Assembly (NCBI GenBank): GCA_013822345.1
Contig: PNKH01000062.1
Span: 1 to 45,338 of the forward strand
Length of the DNA: 45,338 nucleotides
Reading direction: 5' to 3'
Source: Isosphaera sp.
GTDB taxonomy: Bacteria > Planctomycetota > Planctomycetia > Gemmatales > Gemmataceae
Every line of letters begins with the position of its first letter. Position 1 is the stretch's first letter. The notes under the pieces were generated by a model. It was not told the origin of the DNA. It saw only the letters and a program-made list of their open reading frames with translations, and ran no database searches. The position numbers and the translations under genes were made by a program. This document shows, piece by piece, positions 7 to 7,612 of the stretch.

Positions 7-264
7 TCAGCCCTTGTGCCCGGCCTTCTGCTTCTGCGGCTCGTTCGGGGTGCCGACGGGGGCCTCGGGCTGCTTCTCCTCCTCCCGCTCGACGATCACC
101 TCGCCGAAGTCCTCGGGCTTCTTGCCGAGGAGTTTCGAGACGAGTTCGCGGTGCATCTGCTCGTGCTCCAGCGGCAGGGCGTCCGGCTCGGAGTCGAGCT
201 TGATGATGATGTTCTGCTTCCCGGTGTTCGGGTCGCGGCGGAGCATGATGATCATTTCGGCCAT
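7..264 (-). CDS. Small acidic accessory protein of the FtsH operon
   Basis: An 85-residue protein that begins MAEMIIMLRRDPNTGK and ends in a Glu/Lys/Gln-rich tail. It is the last gene of the FtsH-like operon inside the window and lies 89 bp beyond the protease stop. The N-terminal half looks like a short beta-strand pair (IIMLRRDP, NIIIKLDSEP) followed by a helix with His residues (LEHEQMHRELVSKLLG). No signal peptide or membrane segment is seen. It resembles the small proteins that accompany FtsH-like AAA proteases in predicted ternary conflict systems, but I cannot name the family with certainty. The start is fixed by the ATG at 262-264; upstream in-frame sequence runs antisense to the protease gene and is not credible coding. 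Confidence 0.75.
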   Translation of the reverse strand: MAEMIIMLRRDPNTGKQNIIIKLDSEPDALPLEHEQMHRELVSKLLGKKPEDFGEVIVEREEEKQPEAPVGTPNEPQKQKAGHKG

Positions 265-281
265 GTCGTCTCCGGTTCCAG

Positions 282-354
282 GTTCCAGGTTCCACGTTCC
301 AAGTTGAACACCCCCGCCGCAGGTTCCGCCAACGTGGAACGTGGAACCTGGAAC
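282..354. repeat. Inverted repeat between accessory gene and FtsH gene
   Basis: Arms at 282-300 and 336-354 (19 nt, GTTCCAGGTTCCACGTTCC and its complement) enclose a 35-nt loop. The left arm is extended by a further direct repeat of GGTTCCA. The repeat fills the gap between two co-directional genes and touches the protease stop codon. It could act as an mRNA processing or attenuation hairpin. Confidence 0.7.
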
Positions 355-3300
355 TACTCCGCCGCATCCTTCTTCGCCTTGCCCGTTTTCTTGTCCGCGG
401 CCCCGTTCGCCTCGGCGGTGGTGCCCGCCTTGGCGTCCAGCTTCACCTCCGGGCCGGGGGCGCCGACATCCTTCGGGAACCGCGCCCGCAGGTCGTCGAT
501 GATCGCCCGCGTCCGCTCCCCCTCGATCGTCTTCTTCTCCATCAACTCGTCCCGCACCTTCACCAGGTCCGCCCGGTGCTTCGCCAGGATCGCGGCCGCC
601 TTCGCCTGGGCCTCGACGATGATCGTGTTCACCTGCCGGTCGATCGCCTCGGCCATGCTGCCGGACAGCACCACCCGCTTCCCCTCGTGGTCGTGGAACG
701 ACCGGAGCGGGGCCGCCAGGTTGCTCATCCCGCACACCTCGACGATCAGCTCGGCCAGCTCCGACGCCCGGGACAGGTCCGACCCCGGGCTCCCCATCCC
801 GCTCGCCCCGGTCGACACGTCCCCGACCAGCAGCCGCTCGGCCTCGATCCCGCCGTACAGGACGCACAGGATGTCGAGCATCTCGGCCCGGCTCATCCCG
901 ACCCGCTTCTTCTCGTGCCTGAACTGGGTGAAGAACGGGGCCCACGGCATGTCGCTCTGGATCGTCACCTTCTCCGGCGGCGGGTGGTTCGGGCAGAAGA
1001 TCGACACCAGGAAGTGCCCGGCCTCGTGCGTCGCCACGACCGGCAGGTCCTTCTCGTGCAGCTCGACCTTCTCGTCGAACTCGGTCAGCGCCTTCTCGAC
1101 CAGTTTGGGGTCCGTGTCGCCCTTGATGTCCTCGCGCATCCGGAGCCGGGCGACGGCCCGGCAGAGGGCGTTCAGGTGGTCGCCGCTGAACGCGGTGCCG
1201 GTCGGCGTCATGTACCGGTTCCCGGTCCGGGTGACCGCGTAGTCGAGCGCCTCCGGGGTGAACTTCAGCTTCATCTTCTTGTCGTAGATCTCGAAGATGG
1301 CGCGGCGGTCGTCGTCGTCCGGGTACGGGATGTGGATGTGGAACTCGAACCGCCCGGGGCGGAGCAGGGCCGGGTCGAGGGACTCGACGAAGTTGGTGGT
1401 CCCGACGACGAAGACGAGCTCGTCCTTGTGGAACCCGTCCATCTCGGTCAGGAGCTGGTTGACCATCGAGTGCTCGACGCCGCTGCCGGTGTAGGTGCCG
1501 CGGGCGGTGGCGAACGAGTCCAGCTCGTCGAACACGATGATCGACGGGGCCGACTGCCGGGCCTTGTGGAAGATCTGCCGCAGGTTCTCCTCGGAGTTGT
1601 GGACCAGGACGTTCCCGAACCCGGCGACGAACCGCTCGGTCTCCGGCACGCTCAGGTCGTACACGTGCTCGCGGCCGTACGGCTCGCGCCGCTTCTCCAC
1701 GACCGCGTCCCACAGCACGTCGTTGGTGATGTGCCGGGCGGGGGTCTGGGCGTCCCGCTTGAACGTCATGCCGTCGAGGTACCCGCGGAGGGCGCGGCTG
1801 CGGCGCTCGTCGGCGAAGCCGATCCTCTCGGCGAACGTGCGGAGGAACCCGCTCCACAGGAACCGGACGCGGTACGCCGGCGCGCCGTTCCGCTCGGGCT
1901 TCGGCCGGACCCGGGCGGCGATCCCGAAGTACTGGAGCAGGGTGACCACGTCCTCGGCCAGCCCGCGGCTGGTCGTGGTCGCCTCGACGTACTTCCCGCT
2001 GAACGTGCCGTCGCCGCTGAAGTACCCGCGGAGGAATCCGGCGACGACGGGGAGCGGCGCGAGGAACATGTCGGCCGGGGCGCGTTTTTCCCCGGACCCG
2101 TCACACATCCCCAGCGCGTCCCTCAGGACGTACTTCAGCAGCGTCGAGTTGACGACCAGGTCGAGCCCGCGCCCGCCGCCGGGCTTTCGGTACCGCGTGA
2201 CGTGCCCGAACAGGCGGTTACACAGCGACTCGACCTGGTCGGCCTCGTCCGCGTGGACCGCGATGCGGACGCCGGTACGGTGGAAGCATCCGTCGGCGAC
2301 CCACCGGCCGAGGAACTCGCCGAGGTCAGGGGTCAGCGGCAGCACGCCGGGCATGCGCTTGTTGCGGTGCCAGCAGTACAGCGACAGACTCGCCGGGTCC
2401 AGGTCTTCCCCCGACTCGCGGGCGAGTTGCCGCAGCCCCGCGAGCGTCAGCGGCGATCTGCGGGTGGTGTACCGCAGTTCGTTGACGGCGACTCCGCAGG
2501 CCGCGCCCGCCCGTTCCGACCCGACCCGCTCGACGGCGTGCCCGAGCCACGCATCGTAGTCTCGCACGCGCACGTCCTCGCGGTCGCCGAGCCGCCCGAC
2601 GAGGTCGATCTCGCGGACGGTCTCAGGGGCCTGCAGCCGGAGCGGGACGGCCACCCGGGTCTCGCCCGGCACCACCTGCTCGGCGAACACCTCGGCCAGC
2701 CGGTCCCCGTCGCGGACGAACAGACTGTGCCCGCCGGTGACCCGCACCCGCCGGCCGGTCTCGGTCACGAGCACGTCGACGTAGTCCGGCCCCTTGTGCT
2801 TCAGGAACCCGGTGACGGGCGCGATCAGGGCCGTGCCGTCGTCGCGCACCGTCCACGTCCGCACGTCGTCCTTCGCGTGCTTCTCGACCAGCTCGCCGAT
2901 CGGGATGCGCCGCGGCCGGCCGTTCAGCAGGACGAAGACCTCTTCCTCGTACGGCAGCGACTCCCCGACCCACTTCGACTTCAGCTCCGGGCCGGACACG
3001 ATGGTGATCGCCGCCCCGATGCTCGCCGCGATCGCCTTCGCGAAGTACGTCTTCCCGGTCCCCGGCGGGCCCCAGAAGATCATCCCGCGCGGGATCAGCT
3101 CCTCCAGCCGCGACACCTCGTCCGCGTCGGTCGCGCGGTCGCGCTTCTGGAGCGTGTCCAGCACCTCGGCCTTCAGCTTCGCCTTCACCTTCCCGTACCC
3201 GCCGATGTCCTTCTCCAGGTCGACGCTCGGGACCTCCATGTGGCCGCTCAGCGTCGCCTGCCGGACCTGGGCGTACGCCCGCTTCGGGTCGGCCGGGTAG

Positions 3301-3953
3301 TCCTCGCCTTCGAGCGTCGACAGCAGCCGGCGGAGGCGGACCGCGTTCACCCCGGAGACGTACTTGTAGAGCGACCACGGGGAGAAGTTGCGGCCGAACT
3401 TCCGGCTCTCCTTCTGGGTGACGAGGTGGCGGAGCCGGTTGCGGGCGGTGCCGAGGATGCCGGTCCAGCACGGGAACAGGTTCTCGATCACCTTCGGGAG
3501 CGGGAACGACGGGTCCTTGAACCCGAGCCAGACCAGCTCCGGGTTCTCGTACAGGAGCGGGATCACCTCCCGCGCCTCGCCGGTCAGCCCGCCCTGGCTG
3601 GTGGTCAGGAGGTCGAGGTGCGGGAGGACGACGACCCGCCGCTCGACCGCCCCGCGGACGGCGTCGCGGAGCTGCGCGATCATGGTGCCGATGAGGCCCA
3701 TCGGCATCGCCCCGGCCTGCTGCTCGCGCTGCCGGCCGTCGAGGTAGATGCACTGCAGCTTCGCCTCGCGGAGCCGGTTCCGGACGTTCATGAACAGGTA
3801 CGGGGCGAGCTCCTTGTCGCACTCGACCAGGACCGGGAGCCCGCGGGCCAACTTGCTGGCGACATCGGCCAGCTCGTGCGCGTACGCCGCCTCGACCGCC
3901 TGCTCGGGCGTCAGGGAGGCGGGCAGTTCCTTCTCGGCGACCGTAATCGACAT
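354..3953 (-). CDS. FtsH-like AAA+ zinc metalloprotease with in-frame intein
   Basis: A 1199-residue precursor. Without the intein (residues 332-786) the host protein is 744 residues. Residues 1-290 lack any membrane segment, unlike FtsH, and look like a degenerate AAA-type domain (a Walker B-like VVVLPHLDLL near 107). The active AAA domain has Walker A GPPGTGKT (295-302), pore loop WVG (328-330), Walker B IIVFDELD (805-812) and the arginine-rich LRPGR (864-868). The M41-type protease domain has HEAGH (976-980) and a probable third zinc ligand, Asp1059, in GSDLSRA. It should therefore be a cytosolic ATP-driven unfoldase-protease. It is fifth in a tight minus-strand operon. What it degrades is unknown; the neighbours suggest a dedicated regulatory or conflict system rather than housekeeping FtsH. 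Confidence 0.9.
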   Translation of the reverse strand: MSITVAEKELPASLTPEQAVEAAYAHELADVASKLARGLPVLVECDKELAPYLFMNVRNRLREAKLQCIYLDGRQREQQAGAMPMGLIGTMIAQLRDAVRGAVERRVVVLPHLDLLTTSQGGLTGEAREVIPLLYENPELVWLGFKDPSFPLPKVIENLFPCWTGILGTARNRLRHLVTQKESRKFGRNFSPWSLYKYVSGVNAVRLRRLLSTLEGEDYPADPKRAYAQVRQATLSGHMEVPSVDLEKDIGGYGKVKAKLKAEVLDTLQKRDRATDADEVSRLEELIPRGMIFWGPPGTGKTYFAKAIAASIGAAITIVSGPELKSKWVGESLPYEEEVFVLLNGRPRRIPIGELVEKHAKDDVRTWTVRDDGTALIAPVTGFLKHKGPDYVDVLVTETGRRVRVTGGHSLFVRDGDRLAEVFAEQVVPGETRVAVPLRLQAPETVREIDLVGRLGDREDVRVRDYDAWLGHAVERVGSERAGAACGVAVNELRYTTRRSPLTLAGLRQLARESGEDLDPASLSLYCWHRNKRMPGVLPLTPDLGEFLGRWVADGCFHRTGVRIAVHADEADQVESLCNRLFGHVTRYRKPGGGRGLDLVVNSTLLKYVLRDALGMCDGSGEKRAPADMFLAPLPVVAGFLRGYFSGDGTFSGKYVEATTTSRGLAEDVVTLLQYFGIAARVRPKPERNGAPAYRVRFLWSGFLRTFAERIGFADERRSRALRGYLDGMTFKRDAQTPARHITNDVLWDAVVEKRREPYGREHVYDLSVPETERFVAGFGNVLVHNSEENLRQIFHKARQSAPSIIVFDELDSFATARGTYTGSGVEHSMVNQLLTEMDGFHKDELVFVVGTTNFVESLDPALLRPGRFEFHIHIPYPDDDDRRAIFEIYDKKMKLKFTPEALDYAVTRTGNRYMTPTGTAFSGDHLNALCRAVARLRMREDIKGDTDPKLVEKALTEFDEKVELHEKDLPVVATHEAGHFLVSIFCPNHPPPEKVTIQSDMPWAPFFTQFRHEKKRVGMSRAEMLDILCVLYGGIEAERLLVGDVSTGASGMGSPGSDLSRASELAELIVEVCGMSNLAAPLRSFHDHEGKRVVLSGSMAEAIDRQVNTIIVEAQAKAAAILAKHRADLVKVRDELMEKKTIEGERTRAIIDDLRARFPKDVGAPGPEVKLDAKAGTTAEANGAADKKTGKAKKDAAE
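1596..2960 (-). other. Intein (LAGLIDADG type) inside the FtsH-like protease
   Basis: A 455-residue in-frame insertion spanning precursor residues Ser332 to Asn786. Block A starts SLPYEEEVFVLL (Ser1 instead of the commoner Cys1). Block B is RVTGGHSLF (Thr406, His409). Two homing-endonuclease motifs are LGEFLGRWVADG (near 544-555) and LRGYFSGDG (641-649). Block F is EHVYDLSVPET, and the end is VLVHN with Ser787 as the +1 residue. All splicing nucleophiles are intact, so protein splicing is expected. Removal rejoins KWVGE and SEENLRQ, a normal AAA sequence. The insertion point lies just after the aromatic-hydrophobic-Gly pore loop, so the unspliced enzyme should be inactive. Confidence 0.95.
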
Positions 3954-3982
3954 CGGGGTGGCTCGCGGCGGTCCGTGAACGG

Positions 3983-4043
3983 GTTTAGCCGCGACCCGAA
4001 GGGGAGCGCGGGCGCCGCGCTCCCCTTCGGGTCGCGGCTAAAC
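3983..4043. repeat. Perfect 28-nt inverted repeat, 5-nt loop
   Basis: Arms at 3983-4010 and 4016-4043 are perfectly complementary (GTTTAGCCGCGACCCGAAGG at the outer end). The repeat sits in the 96-bp gap between the coiled-coil gene and the protease gene, both on the minus strand. No U-run follows, so it may be an extragenic palindrome or mRNA-stability hairpin rather than a simple terminator. Confidence 0.85.
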
Positions 4044-4049
4044 GGGGTC

Positions 4050-4622
4050 CTACACTTCGACCTTGATGGTCAGCGACCCGCTCTTGGCGTCCTCGCTGAT
4101 CTCCTTTACGGTGCCCATCTGCTGGGCCTTCTGCTTCAGGGCGTCGCGGGTCACCTGGTTGACCACCTCCGAGATCTCCGGCTGGAGGTCGTTCAGGTGC
4201 TTCTCGAGCTGCTCGGTCGCCTTGTTCTGGAGCCGGGCCTGCTCCTGCTCGAACTTCTTGTCCAGGTCCGCCTGGAGCTGGTCCTTGACCTTGTCCCGCA
4301 GGCTCCGCTCGCTCGGCCCGACGTCGTTGAACCCGGTCGCGTCCCGCTTCGCCTCCTGGCTCACCGTCTCCTCCGTCTCGGCCTTCACCGTCACCTCGCC
4401 GGAGCACGGGTCGACCTTCACCGTCAGGTCCCCGTCCTTCCGGACCATGGTGCCGTTCTCCTGCTCCTCGAACCCGCGCTTCTTCAGCTCCTCCTTCAGC
4501 AGCGTCGCCATGTCCTCGGGCGGGAGGATCTCCAGGATCTCCAGCTGCGTGCAGATCTCGTCCCCGGCCTTCAGGTGGCGAGTGTCCGACTCCTTCACGG
4601 TGATGCGGTACGCGCGGCTCAT
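4050..4622 (-). CDS. Coiled-coil accessory protein of the FtsH operon
   Basis: 190 residues from the ATG at 4622, which has GAGGAG nine bases upstream. The start MSRAYRITVKES is preceded, in frame 66 nt upstream, by a second MSRAYRI (ATG at 4688) that also has a GGAG. The 5' end therefore looks duplicated, and a 212-residue form is possible. Residues about 1-90 hold mixed strands and helices (CTQLEILEILPPEDMATLLKEE). From about 110 to 180 the sequence is a charged helical stretch (RDKVKDQLQADLDKKFEQE) likely to form a coiled coil, and it ends with a beta-like SGSLTIKVEV. No catalytic motif is visible. It lies between an unrecognised 390-residue gene and the FtsH-like protease, as accessory proteins do in predicted FtsH ternary systems. 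The family assignment is inference. Confidence 0.78.
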   Translation of the reverse strand: MSRAYRITVKESDTRHLKAGDEICTQLEILEILPPEDMATLLKEELKKRGFEEQENGTMVRKDGDLTVKVDPCSGEVTVKAETEETVSQEAKRDATGFNDVGPSERSLRDKVKDQLQADLDKKFEQEQARLQNKATEQLEKHLNDLQPEISEVVNQVTRDALKQKAQQMGTVKEISEDAKSGSLTIKVEV

Positions 4623-4710
4623 GTCGTCTCGCTCCTCGGGCTTCTGGGGTACGGGGTCTTTCAGCCAAATGCGGTAGGCGCGGCTCATGGCTCCACTCCG
4701 GGCCGGCGGG

Positions 4711-5883
4711 TTATCCGGGGCTGCCCTCGGGGTTCTCGCCGGGCGGCGGGCCGGCGGCCTCGGGCGGGCGGCCGCCGAGCGGCCCCCGCAGCGGCTCCAG
4801 CATCTCGACCGCGGCCCGGGCCCGGGCGGCCACCCGGTCCCCGTTCGCCGCTTCCCAGTCCGCCTTCCACAGCTGGCTGGCCTGGTACCCGTCGTCGAAG
4901 AACCCGACGGCCAGGGCCTGCCGCTGCCACGCCTCCAGCACCTCCATCTGCCGGGGCACGGCCAGCGCCGCCCGCTGGGTGTCGAGCCGGTCGGCGAGCC
5001 GCGGCGGCCCGCTCCCCTGCAAGCCGCCGGTCCAGAACACCGGGGTCAGGTCGCCGGTGAACAGGGCGGCGTTGGTCCGCAGCACGAACCGGGCGAGGTC
5101 GGTCCGGCCGGCGGCGGACGCGGCGAGGAGGAACGCCCGCAGGGCCGCGAACTCCGACCGCCCCTGCCGCCGCATCCGCGCCCAGTCCCCGACCTGGCCC
5201 TTCACCCGCTCCGACCGCGTCCACCGCTGGGCGAGGTGCGGCTGCAGCGCCTCCAGGAGCGCCGCCCGGGCCCCCTCGAACAGGTCGGCGAAGTCCGGCG
5301 GGGTGGCGTCGTCGCCCTCGGCCACGTCGCCGGGGGAGGCGAGCCAGCAGAACCGGTTCAGCCGGAACGCGTCCTTCCGGCGGAGGACGGTGAGCAGGTC
5401 CGGGTCGGACCGGGTGGCGTCGAACGCCAGCCAGAAGAACAGCTCGTCGGCCGCGGTCAGGGCGGCCGGGGCGGCGTCCCACGCGGCCTTCGCGTCGTTC
5501 ACCTTCTCGGCCGTCGCCCAGATCAGGAACTCCATCACCGGCTTGGAAAACCACAGCGCCCGCTCGTCGAGCGGGACGCGGTCCCACAGCCGGCCGGGGG
5601 TCGGCACGTTCGCCCGCAGGTACTTGTCGTTCCGCCACGCCCCGTGTCGGACCAGGAACAGGACGCACCCCTTGGCCAGGGTGTCCTTGATCAGGTCGAC
5701 GGCGGCCGGGCTGAGGCACTCAGGCCGGGCGACCGCGGCCCGGACCAGGGTCAGCCCCTGGTCGGCCGGGAAGTGCCCGACCAGGAACCGCAGGATCCGG
5801 AGCAGGTTGAACTCGAACTTCGACACCTGCCGCGGCCCGTCCGGTTCGGGCGGCCGCGGCGGCGGGGCGGCGGGGCGGGTCAT
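4711..5883 (-). CDS. Unrecognised protein of the FtsH operon
   Basis: A 390-residue protein, largely helical, with Pro-rich ends (MTRPAAPPPRPPEP at the start, a Pro/Gly tail at the end). A conserved-looking core begins at about residue 20 (KFEFNLLRILRFLVGHF). Tryptophans in WFSKPVMEFLIWATAEKV and WFAFD-like segments suggest an all-alpha repeat fold. No signal peptide, membrane segment or enzymatic motif is seen. Its ATG overlaps the stop of the radical SAM gene by 4 nt (ATGA), so the two are translationally coupled. I do not recognise the family; by position it matches one of the X-domain proteins of predicted FtsH ternary systems. Confidence 0.8.
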   Translation of the reverse strand: MTRPAAPPPRPPEPDGPRQVSKFEFNLLRILRFLVGHFPADQGLTLVRAAVARPECLSPAAVDLIKDTLAKGCVLFLVRHGAWRNDKYLRANVPTPGRLWDRVPLDERALWFSKPVMEFLIWATAEKVNDAKAAWDAAPAALTAADELFFWLAFDATRSDPDLLTVLRRKDAFRLNRFCWLASPGDVAEGDDATPPDFADLFEGARAALLEALQPHLAQRWTRSERVKGQVGDWARMRRQGRSEFAALRAFLLAASAAGRTDLARFVLRTNAALFTGDLTPVFWTGGLQGSGPPRLADRLDTQRAALAVPRQMEVLEAWQRQALAVGFFDDGYQASQLWKADWEAANGDRVAARARAAVEMLEPLRGPLGGRPPEAAGPPPGENPEGSPG

Positions 5884-6566
5884 GTGGCGTCACCCCCCGC
5901 GGGGGCCGCGGGCGTGGGCTTCTTCCGCCGCCACCCCTTCCACAGCCCGGCGGCGTCCGCGGCCGGGAAGCCGTTCACGCTGACCTCCCGGCCGCGGACG
6001 CGGATCTCCAACGTGTTCCGCCGCCGCCACGGCTCGTCGAACGAGTAGCGGTCGGTGAGGAAGTGGATCCGCTGGTTCGTCGAGCCGATCCACCGCCGCT
6101 CGGTGTCCGGCCGGTCACGGTCGTACGGGCCGTCCACCAGGATGTCGGTGAGGGCGAGCAGGTCGGCCACCTCCGGCTCGGGTCGCGCCCGCAGCTCCTC
6201 CACCGTGTACCCGCTGAACACCATCACGGACAGCCCCAGGTCGCGGGCGGCCCGGGCCAGGCCGACCCCGGCCGCGGCGTGGGCGAACGGCTCGCCCCCG
6301 AGAAGCGTGATCCCCTCGACCCCGGTTTCTTCCCGCGCCCGGTTCAGCCAACCGGCCATCTCCGCCACCGTCTTCGCCTCCCCGCCCTTGAACGGCAGGA
6401 ACTCGGGGTTGCAGCACCCGGGGCAGCGGAGCGGGCAGCCCTGGAACCACACGGCGAACCGCCGCCCCGGCCCCTCGGCCTCGGTGCACGGGACGACCTG
6501 CGCGACCTGCATCGTGGCGGCGTCGGTCGGCATCGCGCGGGCGGCCTCCGGGACGGGTGGCGGCAT
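5880..6566 (-). CDS. NrdG-like radical SAM protein
   Basis: 228 residues resembling the anaerobic ribonucleotide reductase activase type of radical SAM protein. The cluster motif CX3CX2C is at Cys44, Cys48 and Cys51 (QGCPLRCPGCCNPE), and the SAM-binding GGEP is at 90-93, followed by VMVFSGYTVEEL. It should bind a [4Fe-4S] cluster and make a 5'-deoxyadenosyl radical; the substrate is unknown. No class III reductase (NrdD) is nearby. Instead it sits between rtcA and FtsH-system genes, so it may modify an operon partner. The ATG at 6566 overlaps the rtcA stop (TAATG), which favours this start. A second ATG at 6533 (MPTDAAT) with a GGAGG 14 nt upstream could serve a transcript from the internal TATAAT at 6565-6570. 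Confidence 0.87.
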   Translation of the reverse strand: MPPPVPEAARAMPTDAATMQVAQVVPCTEAEGPGRRFAVWFQGCPLRCPGCCNPEFLPFKGGEAKTVAEMAGWLNRAREETGVEGITLLGGEPFAHAAAGVGLARAARDLGLSVMVFSGYTVEELRARPEPEVADLLALTDILVDGPYDRDRPDTERRWIGSTNQRIHFLTDRYSFDEPWRRRNTLEIRVRGREVSVNGFPAADAAGLWKGWRRKKPTPAAPAGGDAT

Positions 6567-7612
6567 TATACCACGGCCGGGATGTGGACGGTCCCGGGTT
6601 GCCCCTCGGCCCCGTCCAATTCGATGTCACGATCCACGAACTTCCGCACGGTCGCGATGTTGGTTGTCAGGTGGCGGGTCACCTCGGACGTGCGGAACGT
6701 GCTGGCGTCCGGGCTGAACACGAGCGGCAGCAGCAACTGGTCGGCCGAGTGCGGGTCGACCGGGCAGCCCGAGGCGCGGAACCGGACCGCCTCGTCGGCC
6801 GCGTCGTCGGCGACCGCCTCGGCCGGCTTGCCGCGCTCCCCGAGGCCGAAGAACAGCGGCGGGACCGGGGCTTGGCGGAAGACCACGGCGGCGACCGTCC
6901 CCGGGTTCGCCGCCTCCCACCGTTCGAGCGGGATGTGCGGCTCGACGCCCTCGGCCTTCATCCGGTTGGCGAGCCGCCGGGCCTGCCGCTTCGCCACCGA
7001 CTCGGGGAGCCCGGCGACGGCGCTGAACCCGCCGGCGGTGGTCAGCTCCGGGCAGGCGGTGAGGGTCACCCCGTGGACGCGGGAACAGGGACGGACGACG
7101 GCCCGGACCTCGCCGTCGCCGCGCGGGTAGAACCCCGGCCGGACCATCTCGAGGTCGACGGTCAGCCCGGCACGCCGGAGGTGCGCGGCCCACGTCGTCT
7201 GGAGGAAGTGGTAGCACGGGGCGTGCTGGTTGTGCGTCCCGCCGGTGACGGTGACCTCGCTCGGGGTCGCCCCGCGGAGGGCGAGCGGCAGGTAGACGGT
7301 GTGCAGCACCAGGGCGGTGGAGCCGGCGGTGCCGATGCGGAAGTGGTACGGCCCGGGCTTCACCGGCCCCGGCTCGAAGTACAGCACCGCCGACCCGTTC
7401 GCGGCCCCCTTGTAGGACGCCCCGCTGACGGCGCCCGCGGCCCGGACGCACATGACGTGCTGCGGCTGGAGGCCGGGCCTGGAACGCCGGGCCCGGATGT
7501 TGGTGAGCTTGAACGGCCGGCCGGTGAGGACCGACAGGGCGAGCGCGGACCGCAGCACCTGGCCGCCGCCCTCGCCCTCCGACCCGTCGATCTCGACCAT
7601 CGCGTCGCTCAT
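6566..7612 (-). CDS. rtcA: RNA 3'-terminal phosphate cyclase
   Basis: 348 residues, the usual length for RtcA, which uses ATP to convert RNA 3'-phosphate ends to 2',3'-cyclic phosphates through an enzyme-AMP intermediate. Visible signatures are GSEGEGGGQVLR (10-21), RPGLQPQH (45-52), GGTHNQHAPCYHF, and the C-terminal HSADQLLLPL whose His288 matches the adenylated histidine of the family. The start MSDAMVEIDG is the one that aligns with family N-termini. It is the first gene of the operon, and its stop overlaps the radical SAM start by one base. No rtcB or rtcR is in the window. Linking RNA-end repair to an FtsH-type protease system is unusual and may mean that the operon responds to RNA cleavage. 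Confidence 0.93.
   Translation of the reverse strand: MSDAMVEIDGSEGEGGGQVLRSALALSVLTGRPFKLTNIRARRSRPGLQPQHVMCVRAAGAVSGASYKGAANGSAVLYFEPGPVKPGPYHFRIGTAGSTALVLHTVYLPLALRGATPSEVTVTGGTHNQHAPCYHFLQTTWAAHLRRAGLTVDLEMVRPGFYPRGDGEVRAVVRPCSRVHGVTLTACPELTTAGGFSAVAGLPESVAKRQARRLANRMKAEGVEPHIPLERWEAANPGTVAAVVFRQAPVPPLFFGLGERGKPAEAVADDAADEAVRFRASGCPVDPHSADQLLLPLVFSPDASTFRTSEVTRHLTTNIATVRKFVDRDIELDGAEGQPGTVHIPAVV

Follow-up and report, generated by a model that had tools for sequence, protein, structure and literature searches.

The FtsH-MoxR-vWA ternary AAA systems have been published as predicted conflict systems in which a radical SAM enzyme is thought to modify a peptide effector (main text of PMC7159879). 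No tested function of any FtsH ternary system was found in the literature searched. In Salmonella, the cyclic phosphate ends made by RtcA signal via RtcR (as outlined in PMC7790460), and cyclic-phosphate RNA is a proposed second messenger in CoCoNuT defence (as outlined in PMC11090510). The Gemmataceae operon described here brings an RNA-end enzyme and an FtsH ternary system together. The system itself is already known and rtcA as its lead gene is new within the literature searched: the open PMC literature searched gave no description of RtcA joined with FtsH ternary genes, and the name RtcA is absent from the main text of PMC7159879.

The operon and its gene products

The window, i.e., the whole stretch of 45,338 nucleotides that was analysed, is the entire contig C62, and the operon is truncated by the contig start. 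Reading of the open reading frames and their translations, together with the Pfam names, confirmed the six same-strand genes that the first-pass annotation had placed at 7-7612, all of them on the minus strand. The features are as follows:

6566..7612, minus strand: rtcA, RNA 3'-terminal phosphate cyclase, 348 aa, lead gene (Pfam RTC 4.7e-69)
5880..6566, minus strand: small radical SAM activase-like protein, 228 aa (Pfam Fer4_12 5.9e-32, Radical_SAM 1.8e-09)
4711..5883, minus strand: fvmX6, 390 aa, predicted nearly all helical (PF20004 2.7e-148)
4050..4622, minus strand: fvmX5, 190 aa (PF20003 1.6e-85, beginning at residue 23 of a longer ORF)
3983..4043, no strand: perfect 29-nt palindrome with a 3-nt loop in the fvmX5-FtsH intergenic region
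354..3953, minus strand: FtsH-like AAA ATPase with M41 peptidase, 1199 aa including an intein (Pfam AAA 2.2e-37, Peptidase_M41 4.1e-27)
1596..2960, minus strand: intein with LAGLIDADG endonuclease, 455 aa (Intein_splicing 7.4e-15, LAGLIDADG_3 3.6e-19)
7..264, minus strand: fvmX3-analog, 85 aa, with an HExxH motif (PF20002 6e-33)

Because the window is an entire contig, the count of six genes is set by the assembly break. The operon continues at the end of contig C84 with two fvmX7 genes, so that the six-gene operon described earlier stands as regards gene placement but lacks these two genes. The order in Gemmataceae is rtcA, radical SAM, fvmX6, fvmX5, FtsH, fvmX3-analog and one or two copies of fvmX7, with MoxR and vWA encoded away from the operon in the same genomes. 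The suggestion that the last five genes are FtsH ternary components is borne out by Pfam for four of them and by conserved order for the radical SAM gene, and the two proteins then left uncharacterised (fvmX6 and fvmX5) do match the families of this system. The overlaps reported among the first three genes are also present, TAATG at 6564-6568 (rtcA stop and possible radical SAM start) and ATGA at 5880-5883 between the radical SAM gene and fvmX6, the radical SAM protein starting in the window at 6566 (228 aa) or 6533 (217 aa). Among 68 loci (duplicates included) the 1-nt overlap of rtcA and the radical SAM gene is not conserved: the first matched radical SAM codon lies at -25 to 294 nt relative to the rtcA stop. 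In 35 of these loci fvmX6 has a possible start that shares 4 nt with the stop of the radical SAM gene.

RtcA scores 327 bits against TIGR03399 (cut-off 250), matches E. coli RtcA (1qmh) at 2e-59, and aligns its His314 with the His of the CHLLTN motif of that protein. The loose catalytic-His pattern H..T[NHS] occurs near the C-terminus in 65/65 RtcA sequences. The enzyme in the Gemmataceae operon is thus predicted from its sequence to be, apparently, a catalytically competent RNA 3'-end cyclase. The rtcB gene is not adjacent to rtcA and RtcB is found on contig C41 of G000; in all, 54 of the 60 genomes with fvmX6 encode RtcB. The radical SAM protein carries a CxxxCxxC motif that is invariant in 13/13 aligned rows. 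Its best NCBIfam match is indeed TIGR02491 (NrdG), as the earlier description of an NrdG-like protein implied, but the score of 96.5 bits lies under the equivalog cut-off of 126.1 and a plain NrdG is ruled out. Its relatives stand first in other FtsH ternary operons, those of a Myxococcus and of two more loci (L149, L142 and L143), which also encode MoxR and ivWA.

Pfam likewise upholds the FtsH-like AAA protease, in which the first-pass annotation had missed a 455-residue intein. This element occupies residues 332-786 of the protease ORF, between WVGE and SEEN and after the AAA Walker A motif, and both its termini exceed the cut-offs of TIGR01445 (intein_Nterm) and TIGR01443 (intein_Cterm), as do the Intein_splicing and LAGLIDADG_3 matches their own. 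An intein is present in the FtsH gene of the window's genome and one other, and the site is uninterrupted in 73 other loci (duplicates included). The translation of the protease contains GPPGTGKT, IIVFDELD and HEAGH, with intact Walker motifs, and its N-terminus, where an FtsH ternary protein would carry a second, inactive AAA domain, consists of about 230 conserved residues without a P-loop, for which profile comparison with the active AAA domain gave no similarity.

The AlphaFold2 model of fvmX6 (pLDDT 89.8) has no Foldseek match in the PDB at E<=0.001. A resemblance to a 60S biogenesis chain (VIA-align, best Z 7.3 over 133 residues) falls within the range that this tool returns for common helical arrangements and was therefore dropped. 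The Foldseek matches of the fvmX7 model (pLDDT 79, pTM 0.56) are mostly helical-repeat proteins (best E 0.009). Judging from the alignment, fvmX5 most likely starts at 4622, a position conserved in 11/11 aligned rows, and not at the in-frame upstream ATG at 4688; the protein matches the PADLOC 'Cyclase' model weakly (3.6e-05). The HExxH motif of the fvmX3-analog is found in 44/44 distinct relatives, selected with a pattern that had already required EHE. An 18-base part of the palindrome upstream of the FtsH gene is repeated elsewhere in the G009 locus. The MoxR partner is encoded on contig C160, unlinked (bpMoxR 6.1e-62), and shows 73% to its counterpart in G049, where the system is linked, and ivWA on contig C11 of G000, also unlinked (2.1e-40); ivWA exceeds the cut-off in 62/95 family genomes. 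A profile search of the PDB for a Ro60-like relative of ivWA returned nothing below E 0.3, and Pfam scans of the operon partners gave no RNA-binding or CARF domain.

Linkage of rtcA to the FtsH ternary genes

That rtcA might adjoin these genes in a single genome is rejected. It immediately precedes the radical SAM gene in 45 of the 54 Gemmataceae genomes that have both, a count that takes in rtcA-radical SAM pairs parted from fvmX6, and in 18 of 24 genera; in the other 9 of the 54 genomes the two genes are parted. Upstream of fvmX6 and on the same strand, rtcA is found in 39 of the 60 genomes with fvmX6 over the cut-off (95 searched), and in these 39 the gap between the two genes, 677-1013 bp, is long enough to hold the radical SAM gene. 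Of the 30 loci fetched first, 23 have rtcA, radical SAM and fvmX6 in this order, and rtcA directly precedes the radical SAM gene in 34/80 radical SAM loci of the named collection. The recurrence of this order is far beyond chance, and the earlier view of rtcA as a coupled lead gene foreign to the published system is supported by its conservation as lead gene and by the main text of PMC7159879.

The linkage is kept while the flanking genes turn over: of 30 chosen linked loci, 8 have hemB, one of the five window genes upstream of rtcA, and fewer have any of the other four. Among genomes with a broken cluster, six retain the pair of rtcA and the radical SAM gene and six others have the two genes apart. 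G445, G455, G457 and G459 still have the two paired, with the fvmX6 cluster at another place and devoid of a radical SAM gene; coordinates indicate the same split in G029 and G456. In G479, rtcA is divergent beside the MoxR gene of the system.

The core of the system works without rtcA, as 7 of the 60 fvmX6 genomes have no RTC match, including the one-contig, 99%-complete G019, and rtcA is missing from the fetched flanks of all 22 loci whose titles place them outside Planctomycetota or give no phylum (L109 was left out of this set as mislabelled, and four of the loci have less than 2.3 kb upstream). Present in the Gemmataceae operon and absent from the non-Planctomycetota flanks fetched, rtcA thus extends a known kind of system in a lineage-specific way. 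Co-presence of rtcA and fvmX6 is significant by genome (p 7.5e-10) and not by genus (p 0.17). On the tree, seven changes of linkage are needed, of which the starred branches force three. The AU test does not reject a single origin of the linkage (p 0.36), and the genome count therefore overstates the independent evidence. Pairwise distances over 28 loci correlate for RtcA and fvmX6 (r 0.88) and for RtcA and FtsH (0.66), values obtained without an unlinked control and not taken as evidence.

In two loci of another family, in five fvmX6-negative Gemmataceae and in three linked loci, the gene immediately preceding rtcA is a conserved unknown one. Because this gene also occurs in L133, L135 and L141, which are radical SAM loci without rtcA, a move of the cluster to a resident rtcA is no longer claimed.

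Possible roles of the operon

The conserved lead rtcA points to an RNA role for the AAA protease machine. We read the operon not as a mobile defence system but as a device for RNA damage or RNP quality control: a Gemmataceae FtsH-MoxR-vWA ternary AAA system with RtcA kept at its front by selection, a reading to which we give a little less than an even chance. RtcA would act on RNAs handled by the AAA machine and convert 3'-phosphates at the ends of cleaved or damaged RNA into 2',3'-cyclic phosphates, thereby possibly supplying RNA ends as a signal or as a repair substrate. Such ends could be joined by RtcB or could mark damaged RNA-protein complexes by acting as a ligand; MoxR/vWA and FtsH would remodel or degrade the protein side of these complexes. 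In this process fvmX6 and fvmX7, as putative helical scaffolds, and fvmX5 may function as adaptors, and the radical SAM enzyme may modify one of the proteins.

The linkage could also be explained by rtcA being a resident housekeeping gene that shares transcription with the system under the same conditions and has no substrate in common with it. We consider this rather unlikely, although several observations speak for it. In nine family genomes rtcA occurs without fvmX6, often preceded by the conserved unknown gene that also adjoins it in other lineages, and the system is found without rtcA in the seven Gemmataceae and the non-planctomycete loci mentioned above; moreover, the tree is compatible with a linkage that arose once, with later losses. 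What this explanation accounts for less readily is the persistence of the linkage in 18 genera while the neighbours turn over, the short spacing between rtcA and the radical SAM gene, and the retention of the radical SAM gene by rtcA in the six genomes with a split cluster. RtcA and the radical SAM enzyme might instead be a working pair, one modifying the other or both acting on one RNA, with the tie to FtsH and the fvm proteins being secondary, and pairs without an adjacent fvmX6 do occur (L103, L113, L117, L126 and L132). However, four of the five pair-only genomes (G455, G457, G445 and G459) have an fvmX6 cluster elsewhere without a radical SAM gene of its own, so that all three still co-occur. 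In addition, rtcA is beside a radical SAM gene in 0/9 fvmX6-negative rtcA genomes, seven of which are without any radical SAM match, and the radical SAM gene accompanies fvmX6 (59/60) more often than rtcA (54/62). A working pair of this sort is accordingly given a very low probability.

Along the lines first proposed for the locus, the operon would be a conflict system in which RNA ends of infected cells are the trigger or the repair target, a peptide effector is the substrate modified by the radical SAM enzyme, and the protease executes the response. The published prediction for the family and the proposed messenger of CoCoNuT defence are in its favour, but the label fits the operon poorly and we regard this role as improbable. 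The operon is single-copy, is present in 18 of 19 genomes of the same genus and lies in ordinary chromosomal surroundings (hemB, a lysA-like decarboxylase, argH), and Pfam identifies no defence gene among 20 other proteins of the window that were scanned, six of which are without a match. Within the genus, fvmX5 (78-93%) and FtsH (83-89%) are about as conserved as hemB (82-86%), with RtcA, fvmX6 and the radical SAM protein being less conserved than hemB. No relatives were found in phage, plasmid or viral-contig collections, and the PADLOC matches are to general AAA proteins (IetA, TRIP13), to homing endonucleases or weak. In a wider analogy, to which little probability is attached, the FtsH ternary system of complex bacteria would be a machine for the surveillance of RNPs or ribosomes and the bacterial counterpart of the eukaryotic ribosome-biogenesis set. 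Eukaryotic ribosome biogenesis employs the RtcA-like Rcl1, the MoxR/vWA machine Midasin and classical AAA unfoldases on pre-ribosomal particles. The role of Midasin is named in the main text of PMC7159879. If the analogy were true, the Gemmataceae version would betray the surveillance role by carrying an RNA-end enzyme in the same operon.

A conserved and apparently intact RNA-end enzyme leading the operon provides a biochemical handle on the FtsH ternary system. Furthermore, the near-universal, single-copy presence of the system in a genus bears on the 'conflict system' label of the class.

Comparison with known systems

The closest described system is the FtsH ternary system of the simple type (vWA-MoxR subsystem 3; main text of PMC7159879), with which the Gemmataceae operon has in common the FtsH-like AAA protein, the fvmX3-analog, fvmX5, fvmX6, fvmX7 and the radical SAM enzyme, as well as MoxR and ivWA encoded in the genome. 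It differs in its lead gene rtcA, absent from that main text, and in its unlinked MoxR/vWA, duplicated fvmX7 and the intein in the FtsH gene. With the NrdG/PflA activases, the radical SAM protein shares the CxxxCxxC motif and the small activase core, whereas its gene adjoins fvm genes and no reductase. The rtcBA-RtcR operon of E. coli and Salmonella (as outlined in PMC7790460) likewise has RtcA with the catalytic His and RtcB in the genome; in the Gemmataceae operon, by contrast, rtcB is on another contig, the partners are those of an AAA machine, and a simple sigma-54-like consensus is found within 300 bp upstream in none of 68 loci (duplicates included). Finally, CoCoNuT systems with an RtcR-like CARF (as outlined in PMC11090510) differ in their CARF, HEPN and McrB-type domains, which are absent from the Pfam matches of the window operon, but both may tie cyclic-phosphate RNA ends to an NTPase machine.

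Composition of the operon and its continuation on other contigs

The six genes on the minus strand at 7-7612 are present as the first-pass annotation described them, with stop and start codons overlapping at TAATG (6564-6568) and ATGA (5880-5883) as read in the sequence. Pfam assigns them to RTC (rtcA), Fer4_12 (the small radical SAM protein), fvmX6, fvmX5, an FtsH-like AAA plus M41 protein and fvmX3-analog, the fvm names being Pfam's own labels for FtsH ternary system domains. The likeness of the last five genes to such systems, which that annotation had pointed out, is borne out by the fvmX6, fvmX5, fvmX3-analog and AAA plus M41 matches, the first two of which are the proteins left uncharacterized there and now placed by profile matching. 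A second in-frame copy of the fvmX5 start (MSRAYRI) lies 66 nt upstream (4602-4688), and this start region looks duplicated. The window is a complete contig (C62) from a draft assembly in 226 contigs. What stops at coordinate 7 is this contig and not the operon; the gene order in relatives runs on, through one or two fvmX7 genes. In the window genome, two fvmX7 genes occupy the end of contig C84 (length 33591), the system's MoxR gene is on contig C160 with no other system genes adjoining, and the vWA gene (ivWA) is on contig C11.

RtcA scores over the TIGR03399 cut-off, and its His314 aligns with the histidine of the CHLLTN motif in E. coli RtcA, which we take to be catalytic; a loose pattern for this residue is present in 65/65 RtcA relatives. 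The radical SAM CxxxCxxC is invariant (13/13 aligned rows), and the FtsH-like protein has AAA and M41 motifs. The fvmX3-analog (7-264, 85 aa) carries HExxH in 44/44 distinct sequences, selected with a pattern that already required EHE, and this may be a metal site or mini-zincin. The fvmX6 structure is confidently predicted (pLDDT 89.8) as helices plus a single short hairpin, and it has no convincing PDB relative; the fvmX7 model has an alpha/beta N-terminal part followed by a long helical solenoid, for which structure search gave general helical-repeat matches only. As modeled, both proteins look like scaffolds.

Intein and repeats in the operon

Three further features lie within the operon:

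1596-2960, minus strand: intein, residues 332-786 (455 residues) of the 1199-residue protease ORF, with splicing blocks and a LAGLIDADG endonuclease
3983-4043, fvmX5-FtsH intergenic: perfect palindrome with 29-nt arms and a 3-nt loop
275-354, between the FtsH-like gene and fvmX3-analog: inverted repeats of 24-25 nt, 96% complementary, with GTTCCAG-type units

The intein is inserted in the AAA domain between WVGE, presumably part of the pore loop, and SEEN. A counterpart, 70% identical, occurs in one relative (G003, appearing twice as loci L043 and L087), and the site is uninterrupted in 73 other loci, duplicates included. Since the protease would be broken until the intein is removed, splicing could act as a gate on it. 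The RtcB gene of the window genome (contig C41, 9995-12826) shows two matched pieces inside one 1032-codon open frame, as if intein-bearing, and RtcB also matches in two pieces in G022, G449 and G460. An 18-base part of the palindrome recurs in a G009 locus (L048, near 6258-6308 and 8552) and in a few other loci, and the palindrome may therefore be a mobile REP-like element able to affect the operon mRNA. The 19-base core of one arm of the 275-354 repeat is absent from 215 other loci searched.

Persistence of the rtcA linkage

Among 95 Gemmataceae genomes, 60 have fvmX6 over its cut-off (61 at E<=0.001), 62 have RTC and 53 have both; the radical SAM gene is found in 68, together with rtcA in 54. 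The two latter genes are adjacent in 45 of these 54 genomes (six added by reading coordinates or neighborhoods) and in 18 of 24 genera, so that the adjacency, which the first-pass annotation did not know from such systems, recurs and is not confined to the window genome. They are apart in G031, G442, G446, G453 (a weak radical SAM match), G464, G473, G475, G479 and G481. In 39 of the 60 fvmX6 genomes, rtcA lies upstream of fvmX6 on the same strand at a gap of 677-1013 bp, which is space for one radical SAM gene. Of the 19 genomes in the window's genus, the 18 with fvmX6 all show this arrangement, and the one without is 68% complete. In a named genome collection, rtcA is directly upstream in 34/80 radical SAM loci (L110 is cut by a contig end), many of them from the genomes counted above. 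RtcA identity to that of the window falls to 39% among nine other loci with rtcA directly upstream of the radical SAM gene (linked loci).

An RTC match is absent in seven fvmX6 genomes (G019, G027, G033, G449, G465, G466 and G483), and rtcA was not seen in 22/22 loci titled outside Planctomycetota or without a phylum, for four of which the sequence available ahead of the radical SAM gene is <2.3 kb. Locus L109 (JAIXLE010000185.1, titled 'Bacteroidales bacterium'), left out of the 22, has rtcA and the gene positions of contig C138 of G454, a Gemmataceae genome, and is probably a mislabelled MAG. By genus, the presence of rtcA and fvmX6 shows no significant association (20, 4, 5, 4; p 0.17). In the RtcA tree (65 sequences), 36 mostly linked rows group together (SH-aLRT 94) and 7 changes of linkage are needed. 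The AU test does not reject a single linked clade (p 0.36; 0.31 when long rows are dropped). The genomes thus do not count as independent trials, and the weight rests on persistence over deep divergence.

Possible roles of the rtcA-headed operon

The surprise is an RNA enzyme heading an AAA-protease operon. Given the observed composition, order, persistence and catalytic motifs, RNA-linked quality control is tentatively preferred. RtcA would act on RNA 3'-phosphate ends that the machine encounters, producing cyclic phosphates that might be joined by RtcB or used as a mark, and the AAA parts might then remodel or degrade proteins of the damaged complex. In Salmonella, RtcA-made cyclic-phosphate ends are such a mark for RtcR (PMC7790460). 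RtcB is found in 72/95 family genomes and in 54/60 with fvmX6, and by coordinates it adjoins rtcA only in G481, an fvmX6-negative genome.

Bare co-regulation of rtcA with the operon is somewhat unlikely. In a selection of 30 linked loci, not the full set, the five window genes that lie upstream of rtcA were looked for: hemB occurs in 8/30, all in the window's genus except L109, and the other four each in 2 to 5. Of the 30 loci, 26 have fvmX6, and all were picked for having both rtcA and the radical SAM gene. With upstream genes so sparse, the conserved order mostly ends at rtcA itself. An exception is a conserved gene, of no assigned family, directly upstream of rtcA in L184 and L185 (another family), in five fvmX6-negative Gemmataceae (L160, L161, L163, L164 and L165) and in three linked loci (L054, L126 and L205); the gene otherwise upstream of rtcA is also in L133, L135 and L141, three radical SAM loci that lack rtcA. 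A primary RtcA-radical SAM pair, joined to the rest secondarily, is the least probable reading. The pair stands apart from an fvmX6 cluster without an adjoining radical SAM gene in G445, G455, G457 and G459, and by coordinates in G029 and G456; the radical SAM gene remains beside fvmX6 with rtcA elsewhere in G446, G464, G473, G475, G479 (rtcA divergent from the system's MoxR gene) and G031; and all three are separate in G442. In fvmX6-negative genomes carrying rtcA, it is beside a radical SAM gene in 0/9, and 7/9 lack a radical SAM match at E<=1e-25. As side observations, in L141 the gene otherwise upstream of rtcA sits immediately before the radical SAM gene, in rtcA's place, and downstream of the radical SAM gene in L103, L126, L132, L127 and L141, where fvmX6 is not adjacent, there is a protein of ~455-473 aa whose start is similar; in L103 it gives a weak alpha/beta-hydrolase match.

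The conflict role suggested in the first-pass annotation is quite unlikely; in its favor is that the family is published as a predicted conflict system. The system is single-copy and present in 18/19 genomes of the window's genus. Searches of 72,556 plasmid and 50,697 phage records gave no fvmX6 match, and viral contigs gave none to fvmX5. The nearest scanned neighbors include hemB, a lysA-like gene and argH, and a Pfam scan of 20 other window proteins matched 14, with no defence family among the matches. Within the genus, conservation of fvmX5 and FtsH is about that of hemB; it is lower for RtcA, fvmX6 and the radical SAM protein. Mobile defence systems do not usually look like this, although defence is still compatible with the data. 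Well away from the operon, at 40-45 kb, lie an AAA_25 protein and genes with no match, which may be mobile.

Relation to known FtsH ternary systems

The distribution of fvmX6 is narrow, with 2/392 genomes sampled across the phylum over cut-off (the window's own and one partial match). Within the family, ivWA is over cut-off in 62/95 genomes, including 56 of the 60 fvmX6 genomes. In Limnoglobus roseus (L100, G464), MoxR adjoins fvmX7, and rtcA is 7.4 Mb off by coordinate, or ~2 Mb in the other direction on the 9.4-Mb chromosome. Variants include a cluster without the FtsH-like gene and fvmX3-analog, fvmX5 being followed directly by fvmX7 (L054, G030), and a second, shorter fvmX3-analog beside the usual one (L034 6001-6183, G013; PF20002, 3.4e-18). 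In L149 (Myxococcus), L142 and L143, the tight operon radical SAM - fvmX6 - fvmX5 - FtsH - fvmX3-analog - fvmX7 - MoxR - ivWA agrees with the simple FtsH ternary system of Kaur et al. 2020 (PMC7159879). The rtcA-headed operon, undescribed within the literature searched, is a real, conserved extension of this known predicted system.
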